Assembly (NCBI GenBank): GCA_039028635.1 | Contig: JBCCHV010000003.1 | Location: forward strand, 62,001 to 126,000 | DNA length: 64,000 nucleotides | Direction of reading: 5' to 3' | Source: Acidobacteriota bacterium | GTDB taxonomy: Bacteria; Acidobacteriota; Thermoanaerobaculia; Multivoradales; JBCCEF01 | Part shown: positions 21,166 to 25,411 of the stretch, piece by piece | Layout of the letters: the number at the start of each line of letters is the position of its first letter | Numbering within the stretch: the first letter of the stretch is position 1 | Translations under genes and position numbers: made by a program | Notes under the pieces: generated by a model | What the model was told of the DNA's origin: nothing | The model's input: the letters and a program-made list of their open reading frames with translations, nothing else | The model's database searches: none

Positions 21166-21990
21166 TCAGGTCTGACAGGAGACACAGTAGAAGGTGCTGC
21201 GCCCGGTTTGGACGATGCGCCGCAGGGCCTGGCCACAGCGCCCGCAGGGTTCCCCCTCACGACCATAGACGTTCAGCGACACCTGGAAGTAGCCGCTTTG
21301 ACCCTCCCCGTCGGCGAAATCGCTGAAGGTGGTGCCGCCCTCACCGATGGCTTCGGACAGCACCGCCTTGACCGCCGCGACCAGCCGATCCCAGCGCGCC
21401 GGCGCGATCCGCGCCACCGAGCGCTTGGGATGGACACCGGCTCGAAACAGGGCTTCGGAGGCGTAGATGTTTCCCACCCCGACGACCACGTTGGCATTCA
21501 TCAGGAAGGGTTTGACCGGCCCGCGGCGGCCGCGAGCCGCGTCGCGCAGCGCATCACCGGTCCAGAGGTCGTCCAGGGGCTCGGGTCCGAGGTGGAGAAA
21601 ATGGCGGTCGAACTCCAGGTCCTCGGTGGGCAGCGCAAAGACCAGACCGAAGCGCCGCGGATCGACGAACCGCAGGCGGCGACCGGAAGCCAGGGCAAAG
21701 GCGACGTGCTCGTGTTTGTCGCGGCCCTCGGCGCCTTCCGAAACCAGCAACTGGCCGCTCATCCCGAGGTGCACCACCAGCGTTCGTCCGCCCTCGAGAT
21801 CGATCAGCAAGTACTTCGACCGGCGCCTCAGGCGCTCGATCCCGCGGCCGGCGACAGCCTGCTTCAATCCTCTCCGGTCGACCGCCTCGCGCAGATCCGC
21901 CGGTCCCACCCAGACCCCTTCGATGCGCTCTCCGACGAGGTGCGGCTCGAGACTTCGGCGCAGGACTTCAACCTCCGGTAACTCAGGCAT
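21166..21990 (-). CDS. mutM: Formamidopyrimidine-DNA glycosylase
   Basis: The protein begins MPELPEVEVLRRSL. After Met removal the N-terminal Pro is the catalytic amine of Fpg/MutM and the next Glu completes the site, which fixes the start at 21990 rather than at the in-frame ATG at 21999 or further upstream. The conserved H2TH region (MNANVVVGVGNIYASEALFRAG) and the C-terminal zinc finger (CGRCGQALRRIV ... FYCVSCQ) are present. The enzyme removes 8-oxoguanine and other oxidised purines and nicks the abasic site. Length (274 residues) is normal. The gene diverges from the radical SAM gene across a 83-base region with two related dyads and lacks an obvious Shine-Dalgarno sequence for this ATG. 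Confidence 0.96.
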   Translation of the reverse strand: MPELPEVEVLRRSLEPHLVGERIEGVWVGPADLREAVDRRGLKQAVAGRGIERLRRRSKYLLIDLEGGRTLVVHLGMSGQLLVSEGAEGRDKHEHVAFALASGRRLRFVDPRRFGLVFALPTEDLEFDRHFLHLGPEPLDDLWTGDALRDAARGRRGPVKPFLMNANVVVGVGNIYASEALFRAGVHPKRSVARIAPARWDRLVAAVKAVLSEAIGEGGTTFSDFADGEGQSGYFQVSLNVYGREGEPCGRCGQALRRIVQTGRSTFYCVSCQT

Positions 21991-21997
21991 ATCCGCC

Positions 21998-22022
21998 ATA
22001 TTACCGCCCCCGAAGGCGGTAA
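21998..22022 (-). promoter_or_regulatory. mutM -10 hexamer with dyad TTACCGCC-N6-GGCGGTAA
   Basis: The perfect 8+8 dyad occupies 22001-22022. On the minus strand its right end runs into TAATAT (22003-21998), which lies seven bases before the mutM ATG at 21990. The hexamer matches four of six -10 consensus bases; no good -35 is seen. The dyad therefore overlaps the probable core promoter. Confidence 0.5.
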
Positions 22023-22038
22023 TCGAACGCAAAATCTC

Positions 22039-22067
22039 TTGACTTACGCCCCAGAAAGGCGTAAATA
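22039..22067 (+). promoter_or_regulatory. Promoter of the radical SAM gene with dyad TTACGCC-N7-GGCGTAA
   Basis: TTGACT (22039-22044) and TAAATA (22062-22067) are 17 bases apart, and the dyad (22044-22064) fills exactly the space between them. The hexamer ends six bases before the ATG at 22074, so the transcript would be leaderless. The -35 is good (5/6), the -10 only fair. An activator that works on a promoter spacer (MerR-like) or a repressor would fit this layout. Confidence 0.55.
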
Positions 22068-22073
22068 GAGCGT

Positions 22074-23003
22074 ATGACAACGACGACCCTGCCCCTGTTT
22101 CCCACCCTCGCGCCGCTGCCGGCGCGCGTCGATGAACCGACGACGGAGCACATCGAGCTCGATCGCCGGCAGATTCTCCGCCGGGTGCAGGACGCACGCA
22201 CCGGGACGGTCTGGGCTCTCGATCCCTACCGCGGCTGCGAGGCGGCCTGCATCCACTGCCCCAACCGCCGCGGGCACCACGCCTTCCAGCTCCTGCGGTG
22301 GCGAGACTTCGAGACCAAGATCTTCGTCGAGACCGGCGCCCCCAAGGCCCTCGAGCGCCATCTCCTGTGGCAAGAGTTCGCGGGCGAGACGCTCTCCCTC
22401 GGCCACTTCGCCGATCCTTACCAGGAGGCCGAGGAGCGCTTTCGCCTCACCCGCTCGCTGCTCGAGGTGATGACCAAGTTCCGGGGCCTCGACCTGTCGA
22501 TCGCCACCCGCTCACCGCGCATCGTCGCCGACCTCGACCTGCTGATGGAGCTCGACCTGCGACACACGGTGACGGTCCACATGGGGATCGCGACCACCGA
22601 TGCTCGCCTGTCGCGGGAGCTCGAACCCGGTGGCGCCGATCCCGCGGACCGCTTCGCCGCCATCGAGCGGCTCACCGAGGCCGGCATTGCCACGGACCTG
22701 CGCTGCATTCCCCTGATGCCCGGTATCAACCATGAGGCCGAGCAACTCGCACCGCTCTTCGAGGCCGCCCGCGACGCCGGCGCCTTCGACATCGTCGGCC
22801 ACTGTCTCGAGCTACCGATGGCGACCCGGCCACGCTTCATGGCTTGGATCGAAGAGCGCAAGCCCCGGCTGATCAGCCGGTACCGGCGCCTCTATGGTCG
22901 GCGAAGCAGCCTGCGGCGACCGGACAAGAATCGCCTGCTCTCGGACTTTCGGCGGCTCTACCTGGAAATGGGCTACCCGCGCCCGACGATCAGCCGCGGT
23001 TGA
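22074..23003 (+). CDS. Radical SAM protein of the spore-photoproduct-lyase-like (SplB-type) family
   Basis: The 309-residue protein has the radical SAM cluster motif CEAACIHC with Cys55, Cys59 and Cys62, in the context DPYRGCEAACIHCPNRR. This is typical of the SplB-like group that includes Rv2578c-type proteins (usual form YRGCxHxCxYCxAR). Downstream are the conserved segments SLGHFADPYQEAE, IATRSPRIVADLDLL and ATTDARLSRELEPGG. True spore photoproduct lyase repairs a thymine dimer in spores. This protein lacks SPL-specific features I could verify, so its substrate is open. It is divergent from mutM and appears leaderless. Confidence 0.9.
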   Translation: MTTTTLPLFPTLAPLPARVDEPTTEHIELDRRQILRRVQDARTGTVWALDPYRGCEAACIHCPNRRGHHAFQLLRWRDFETKIFVETGAPKALERHLLWQEFAGETLSLGHFADPYQEAEERFRLTRSLLEVMTKFRGLDLSIATRSPRIVADLDLLMELDLRHTVTVHMGIATTDARLSRELEPGGADPADRFAAIERLTEAGIATDLRCIPLMPGINHEAEQLAPLFEAARDAGAFDIVGHCLELPMATRPRFMAWIEERKPRLISRYRRLYGRRSSLRRPDKNRLLSDFRRLYLEMGYPRPTISRG

Positions 23004-23885: not shown

Positions 23886-24818
23886 ATGGATGTTCTCAGC
23901 CGTATTCTCGATCGCGTCGCCATGCGAGGCAGCCTTTACTACCCCACAGAGTTTCGCGCCTGTTTCGGGCTCACCGTACCGGCGAACCGGCACGTGTGTC
24001 GCTTTCACGTGGCGGTCGAGGGAGGCTGCCTTCTCAGTGCCAATGGCCAGACCCTTCGCCTCGAACAGGGCGATCTGGCCCTGGTCCCGCACGGCCTCGA
24101 GCATCTGCTCCAAGACCAAAAGGCGACGCCACCGGTGCCCCTCGACGAAGCCATCGACGAGGCCGGCTACAGCGGTGATGGCCCCTTTCGATGGGGCGGA
24201 GAGGGTCCGGCCTGTCGCCTGATCTGCGGCCACTTCGATTTCGACAAGGACTTCAGCCAGACCTTCCTGCGGTCTCTTCCCCCCATCGTCCATGTCCCCG
24301 CCACGTCGACCTACGATTTCCGCTGGATCGACCAGGTCATGCGCTTCATCGGTGAGGAAGTCCACGACCGGCGCCCCGGCAGCGAAGCCATCGCCCGCCG
24401 CCTCTCGGAGGTGCTGTTCGTCCAGGTCATTCGACACTACGCCGAGTCGGCGGAGGCTCCCGTCCCGATCCTCGCCGGCATCGCCGATCCGCAACTGAGC
24501 CGAGTCCTCGATGCCGTGCACTCTCGTCTCGATCACCCCTGGACCCTCGAGGCGCTGGCGCGCGAAGGCGCCATGTCCCGCACCTCCTTCACCAGCCACT
24601 TTTCGAAGCTGATGGGCATGACACCGATGACCTACCTCACCGAGCAGCGCATGATTCAGGCTTGCAAGCTGCTGCGCGCCGGCGAGACCCTCGGCAGCGT
24701 CGCCGATCGAGTGGGCTACCGCTCCGAAGCCGCCTTCAGTCGCAAGTTCAAAGAGCACTTGGGACAAGGTCCCGGAGCCTATCGCCGCGCTCACCGCCAG
24801 TCGGCGGAAACACGATGA
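23886..24818 (+). CDS. AraC-family transcriptional regulator with cupin-like sensor domain
   Basis: The 310-residue protein has an N-terminal cupin_6-type domain (CRFHVAVEGGCLLSANGQTLRLEQGDLALVPHG) and a C-terminal AraC DNA-binding domain with two helix-turn-helix motifs (WTLEALAREGAMSRTSFTSHFSKLMGMTP and GSVADRVGYRSEAAFSRKFKEHLG). It most resembles the AraC/cupin_6 group that controls neighbouring stress or reductase genes. TGGAG precedes the ATG. The stop overlaps the start of the UDG-family gene (ATGA), and the divergent YHS gene is a probable target. Confidence 0.93.
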   Translation: MDVLSRILDRVAMRGSLYYPTEFRACFGLTVPANRHVCRFHVAVEGGCLLSANGQTLRLEQGDLALVPHGLEHLLQDQKATPPVPLDEAIDEAGYSGDGPFRWGGEGPACRLICGHFDFDKDFSQTFLRSLPPIVHVPATSTYDFRWIDQVMRFIGEEVHDRRPGSEAIARRLSEVLFVQVIRHYAESAEAPVPILAGIADPQLSRVLDAVHSRLDHPWTLEALAREGAMSRTSFTSHFSKLMGMTPMTYLTEQRMIQACKLLRAGETLGSVADRVGYRSEAAFSRKFKEHLGQGPGAYRRAHRQSAETR

Positions 24819-25411
24819 GCCTTTCAGGCCTTCTCGACGACGTCTCGCGCTGCGAAATCTGCCAGTCCCACCTGCCTCTCGGACCTCGTCCTCTGCTGCG
24901 CATCGAGTCCGCGGCTCGCTTGGTGATCATCGGACAAGCTCCCGGTCGCCTCGCCCACCAGAGTGGCATCCCATGGAACGACCCGAGTGGTGATCGCCTG
25001 CGGGACTGGCTGGGAATCTCCCGCGAGGAGTTCTATCGGCACCCAGCCCTCGCCATCATGCCGATGGGATTCTGCTTCCCGGGGACTGGTCGAGGCGGCG
25101 ATCTGGCGCCGCGACCGGAGTGCGCCTCTACCTGGCACGCGGCACTGCTTGCCGAGATGCCGCGACTCGAGACAACCCTCCTCATCGGCCGCTACGCCCA
25201 GAACACCTATCTCGATGGAACGAAGCGCTCGGTCACCGCCGCCGTCAAGACCTGGGCCGAGACCTTTCCGCGCCTTCTGCCGCTGCCACACCCCAGCCCG
25301 CGGAACAACCGCTGGCTCAAGCAGAATCCGTGGTTCGAAATCGAGGTCTTGCCGGCACTCCGGCGGAAAGTCGCCGAAATGCTCTCGGACCACACAGGCA
25401 CCGATCCGTAG
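24815..25411 (+). CDS. Uracil-DNA glycosylase superfamily protein
   Basis: The 198-residue protein has the superfamily motif 1 GQAPG (residues ~38-42) and the motif 2-like HPSPRNN in LPHPSPRNNRW, plus a conserved middle (IMPMGFCFPGTGRGGDLAPRPEC). This matches a widespread small UDG-like family ('GQAPGR ... HPSPRNN') and not UngA or the Fe-S UDG families; only two N-terminal cysteines are present. Base-excision activity on uracil or another lesion is inferred, not shown. The ATG overlaps the AraC stop (ATGA), so translation is coupled. A longer frame from 24662 lies inside the AraC gene. Confidence 0.88.
   Translation: MSLSGLLDDVSRCEICQSHLPLGPRPLLRIESAARLVIIGQAPGRLAHQSGIPWNDPSGDRLRDWLGISREEFYRHPALAIMPMGFCFPGTGRGGDLAPRPECASTWHAALLAEMPRLETTLLIGRYAQNTYLDGTKRSVTAAVKTWAETFPRLLPLPHPSPRNNRWLKQNPWFEIEVLPALRRKVAEMLSDHTGTDP

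Follow-up and report, generated by a model that had tools for sequence, protein, structure and literature searches.

LexA is the chief regulator of the DNA-damage response in bacteria. The site that it binds varies between bacterial groups, and 17 motifs had been reported by 2021 (PMC8565304). Sites built as direct repeats have been described in Alphaproteobacteria and Balneolaeota (PMC3323433, PMC7739468, PMC8565304) and form a minority among the known motifs. The alphaproteobacterial box is GTTC-N7-GTTC (PMC3323433), that of Balneolaeota is the direct repeat TTACACATATTTTWTACATA (PMC7739468) and that of Bdellovibrio is the palindrome TTAC-N3-GTAA (PMC8565304). The gene splB (COG1533) belongs to the SOS genes of alpha- and betaproteobacteria and of Bacteroidetes (PMC3323433, PMC8565304). 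The locus described here lies in a 64 kb stretch of DNA from a member of the Thermoanaerobaculia, referred to as the window, in which the divergent starts of mutM and a radical-SAM gene are separated by 83 bp. This gap is probably a LexA-controlled SOS control region, a reading to which we assign a probability of roughly 0.87 on the basis of the sequences compared.

The two genes and the gap between them

The features of the locus are collected in Table 1. As MutM requires a proline directly after the initiating methionine, the ATG at 21990-21988, which gives MPELPEV, is the right start for mutM. The product of the divergent gene has an intact CxxxCxxC motif at residues 55-62, and these cysteines are invariant in 16 aligned sequences. 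It had been taken for a SplB-like protein in an earlier note on this DNA. However, its best NCBIfam matches were rSAM_Rv2578c (180 bits, 5e-53, below the cut-off of 430) and PA0069 (172 bits, 2e-50, below the cut-off of 360), no spore-photoproduct-lyase model was among the NCBIfam matches listed and no match to the PDB was found at E 0.01. The name SplB was dropped. A gene of the uracil-DNA-glycosylase superfamily (24809-25408) is located three genes away from the radical-SAM gene and follows a regulator of the AraC type (RclR-like); no LexA-type box was found there among the top matches in the window.

Table 1. Genes, promoter elements, dyads and LexA-type boxes of the locus, in window positions.
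Feature	Position	Strand	Sequence or match	Remarks
mutM, formamidopyrimidine-DNA glycosylase	21169..21990	-	PF01149/PF06831/PF06827; PRK01103.1 (NCBIfam) 327 bits, cut-off 212	
Radical-SAM protein, Rv2578c/PA0069-like	22074..23003	+	PF04055 8e-12	
mutM -10	22003-21998	-	TAATAT	Leaderless-type; 7 nt before ATG at 21990
Radical-SAM promoter	22039-22044 and 22062-22067	+	TTGACT-N17-TAAATA	Sequence read directly
Dyad 1	22001-22022		TTACCGCC-N6-GGCGGTAA	Seen in window's genome only
Dyad 2	22044-22064		TTACGCC-N7-GGCGTAA	Exact in window's genus only (N6 in G001)
Box A	22058-22075	-	ATACGCT-CTAT-TTACGCC (GGCGTAA-ATAG-AGCGTAT on +)	20.8 bits
Box B	22015-22032	-	TTGCGTT-CGAT-TACCGCC (GGCGGTA-ATCG-AACGCAA on +)	18.5 bits
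Box C (weak)	21991-22008	+	ATCCGCC-ATAT-TACCGCC (GGCGGTA-ATAT-GGCGGAT on -)	10.05 bits

The length of the gap, the TTGACT with its 17-bp spacer and TAAATA, the TAATAT and the distances of both -10 hexamers from their start codons, all as the earlier note had them, were confirmed from the sequence. The TAAATA of the radical-SAM gene ends 6 nt 5' of the ATG at 22074, and several relatives show TTGACA-N17-TAAAAA-GGCGTAA-ATG at this promoter. On the mutM side of the gap no good -35 was found; TA(C/G)AAT-like hexamers occur in relatives at a similar distance 5' of mutM. Both dyads pointed out in the earlier note are present and far above chance. The pattern of dyad 1 is expected 0.00 times in shuffled sequence, and the looser TTACN11-16GTAA occurs twice in the window against 0.14 expected, a number reached by none of 100 shuffles. 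The gap has the appearance of a control region for divergent promoters.

Inverted and direct repeats

About 20 genomes of the order, from families f1, f3, f5 and f9, have mutM and the radical-SAM gene as a divergent pair, often with udk beyond mutM. The aligned gaps keep TTGACA, the spacer and GGCGTAA-N4-GGCGTAA near the radical-SAM start. When up to two mismatches were allowed, this direct repeat was present in 20 of 21 radical-SAM promoters, that of the window included, whereas the inverted form was present in only 4 of the 21 and was exact solely in the two genomes of the window's genus. The single paired promoter lacking the direct repeat is at locus L014; the repeat is also kept in a genome (G031, locus L020) where the radical-SAM gene is not beside mutM.

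These counts bear on the earlier note's reading, in which the operator is formed by the inverted dyads. In its favour, the window has exact copies of both dyads, G001 (the other species of the genus) also has the radical-SAM dyad exactly, and LexA sites are palindromic in most phyla. However, the spacing between dyad arms varies (6, 7, 6), the direct repeat is what the promoters conserve and not even G001 has the mutM-side dyad. A regulon of inverted dyads was also rejected in the window's own genome of 6.28 Mb, where TTACN12-14GTAA occurs in six places, fewer than the 30 of the reversed control, and no further occurrence has GCC/GGC arms. We therefore regard the dyads as unlikely operators.

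What the earlier note overlooked is that the right arms of the dyads double as units of direct repeats with an 11-bp period, and these, unlike the dyads, match other genomes. Three such boxes lie in the gap (Table 1). Box A overlaps the radical-SAM -10 and ends inside the start codon, box B overlaps both the right arm of dyad 1 and the mutM -35 position, and box C lies across the mutM -10 and directly adjoins the ATG of that gene. The boxes were scored with a matrix trained solely on lexA boxes, from which the window's genus was left out. Boxes A and B were the best two of approximately 128,000 positions in the window, the next score being 12.2 bits. The second half of box A (AGCGTAT) deviates from the consensus. 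Markov sequence with an equal base composition is expected to reach the score of box A 0.004 times and that of box B 0.022 times per window. Box C ranked fifth, and with about 1.5 such scores expected per window it is not significant window-wide. The same box as box A, at 20.9 bits, is carried by the radical-SAM gene of G001, where box B is weak (4.0 bits). With an Infernal sequence-only model made from the same boxes, the radical-SAM site was among the five best in the own genome, the others being at a second radical-SAM gene, an XRE gene, imuA and dnaE2. The E-values were approximately 1 to 3, so that single sites are not significant alone and the case rests on the set of sites.

At three loci, L286 (G022), L291 (G029) and L294 (G015), several TTACGCC-type units form an array between mutM and its divergent neighbour, many of them spaced at 11-bp steps, which suggests that they might be filled cooperatively by LexA. 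Some radical-SAM homologues divergent to mutM have lost CxxxCxxC (it reads, for example, EPYRGSE) or are reduced (L023, L025, L026, L032/L290 and also L277, L276, L278, L294, L286, L291), and these retain open frames and strong LexA-type boxes. It is possible that they are SOS-induced pseudo-enzymes.

The box at lexA and SOS genes

A box resembling TTACGCY-N4-TTnCGCC was found at the start of lexA in 48 of 50 loci of the order, including the window's own genome, where it is ATACGCCCAATTACCGCC. The lexA boxes usually sit within TTGAC-box-TA (TAnnnT), filling the space from -35 to -10. Of the other two loci, one is a second LexA (L095) and one has an uncertain start (L129); near the lexA of the latter a perfect box lies at G029:C47:111217-111239, some 270 bp 5' of the domain match. 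LexA scored above the family cut-off in 57 of the 59 genomes of the order. The own genome (G000) has one copy (G000:C31:43618-44220; TIGR00498, 8.4e-54), with the Ala-Gly cleavage site, the serine in GDSM and the lysine all present, and it matches solved LexA structures (PDB, 1.6e-33).

When searched with one mismatch allowed, GGCGTAANNNNGGCGTAA was found in 49 of the 59 genomes, mostly one to seven times each, against few matches for the reversed control. The adjoining genes are largely a classical SOS set: dnaE2, imuA, dprA, a second radical-SAM gene, an XRE regulator, a member of the DinB superfamily (PF05163) and, in one genome (G002), lexA itself. In the own genome the box stands 5' of dnaE2, imuA, dprA, the second radical-SAM gene and the XRE regulator; a relaxed IUPAC pattern was too unspecific there (129 matches against 86 for the control). 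The lexA and radical-SAM boxes of the window's genus have in common a genus-specific first half, ATACGC. As recA is preceded by a box in several families only, the own recA promoter scoring 5.0 bits, it was ruled out as a universal target. The full promoter-type pattern occurred in 79 of 149 Thermoanaerobaculia genomes against about one control match, and outside the class it was sporadic at approximately the control level. The box is thus essentially confined to Thermoanaerobaculia. It is placed before lexA and core SOS genes, and the mutM/radical-SAM locus ranks high among its sites. The theme of DNA damage in the earlier note was right. Searching relatives for the motif, as that note suggested, did yield a gene set pointing to LexA, but the dyads themselves were not kept.

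It might be argued that a protein other than LexA binds the repeats, be it MerR-like, PhoB/OmpR-like or the regulon's own XRE regulator. Direct repeats of 11 bp also suit CarH/LitR and PhoB-type regulators, which were considered on account of this period, and the XRE gene itself carries the box in both species of the genus. Against this, the box precedes lexA across the families of the order and precedes classical SOS mutagenesis genes as well, and MerR/CarH and PhoB-type control were dropped once the lexA promoters had been seen. The MerR-like mechanism raised in the earlier note further conflicts with a spacer of 17 bp, rather than an overlong one of 19-20 bp, and with a dyad that is not conserved beyond the genus. 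LexA is the likelier regulator and a different protein very unlikely.

The second radical-SAM gene, of the same superfamily, has a top-scoring box in both species (L071, G000:C73:21641; L076, G001:C13:127875), which gives the genus two SOS-type radical-SAM genes. A 19.7-bit box lies right before an MraZ-like gene (L069 5403-5420, G000:C4:41402-41419), a gene which heads the division cluster in many bacteria; it was not among the G001 matches listed. The box of the XRE-family regulator is among the best in both species (L067:164-652, G000:C1:742; L073:4246-4953, G001). In Myxococcus, an XRE protein, DdiA, has been described as a co-regulator in the response to DNA damage (PMC12288472).

Control of the two genes and comparison with known LexA systems

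The family of the regulator and the placement of the sites suggest LexA binding, repression and induction by damage; leaderless transcription is a further prediction, as is, in particular, control of mutM. LexA of Thermoanaerobaculia would recognise the direct repeat TTACGCY-N4-TTnCGCC, whose period of 11 bp is one helix turn, and LexA dimers on such repeats would exclude RNA polymerase. On box A, LexA would block the -10 and start codon of the nearly leaderless radical-SAM promoter, and on boxes B and C it would lie over the mutM -35 and over the -10 and start. Upon DNA damage, LexA would cleave itself under stimulation by RecA, so that the promoters become free and the genes are induced.

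Control of the radical-SAM gene by LexA is well supported by the sequence comparisons. The case of mutM is less clear. Where a radical-SAM-like gene is divergent to mutM, boxes are present (the neighbour is not established in G040 and G044), whereas in 11 genomes where the two genes were not found side by side there is no box before mutM, the best score being 1.2 bits. The box is therefore primarily that of the radical-SAM gene, control of mutM is unsure and mutM may merely share the gap. The proposal that LexA controls the radical-SAM gene only, so that mutM is not regulated and boxes B and C are either additional radical-SAM operators or chance matches, has somewhat less than an even chance. 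It agrees with family f9, where the single box is at the radical-SAM start, and with the absence of the mutM-side dyad from G001. It does not agree so readily with box B, the second best in the window, lying over the mutM -35, with the boxes of 20-22 bits that G022 and G029 have over the start of mutM, or with a 15-bit box 18-35 bp before mutM in G001. Given these boxes together with boxes B and C, mutM may have been drawn into box control within some lineages. Of the mirror-image control of both genes put forward in the earlier note, the radical-SAM side stands with box A, but the mutM side has only one good and one weak box. Similarly, a single protein controlling the gap is plausible and would likely be LexA, but its control of mutM finds no support where mutM stands apart. 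The fuller proposal, that Thermoanaerobaculia have a LexA code of their own which in this genus has captured both mutM and the radical-SAM gene by mirror-image, nearly leaderless promoters with start codons in or next to the operators, is tentative, the odds being somewhat against it.

In a limited search of titles and abstracts in the open-access literature on LexA of Thermoanaerobaculia or Acidobacteria and on mutM in LexA regulons, the TTACGCY-N4-TTnCGCC box was unreported. The alphaproteobacterial box is likewise a direct repeat with an 11-bp period, but its half-site is GTTC rather than TTACGCC/TTnCGCC. According to its title, the study of Mazon et al. 2006 (cited in PMC3323433) reports an alphaproteobacterial lexA laterally acquired in Acidobacterium capsulatum; that organism belongs to another class of the phylum, and the box described here is unlike the alphaproteobacterial type so titled. 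The Balneolaeota site resembles ours in being a direct repeat with TTAC-like halves and in having a radical-SAM protein in its regulon, but differs in half-site, spacing and phylum. The Bdellovibrio site has the TTAC half-site in common but is a palindrome with short spacing. As with splB, a radical-SAM gene annotated as DNA repair is found under a LexA-type box, although the gene here is Rv2578c/PA0069-like, divergent to mutM and under another type of box. This is added evidence for SplB-like radical-SAM proteins, whose chemistry is unproven, recurring as SOS genes. A direct repeat serving as the box throughout a class of Acidobacteriota would be one more instance of change in the LexA site, and it allows the SOS regulon to be predicted in a mostly uncultured class.
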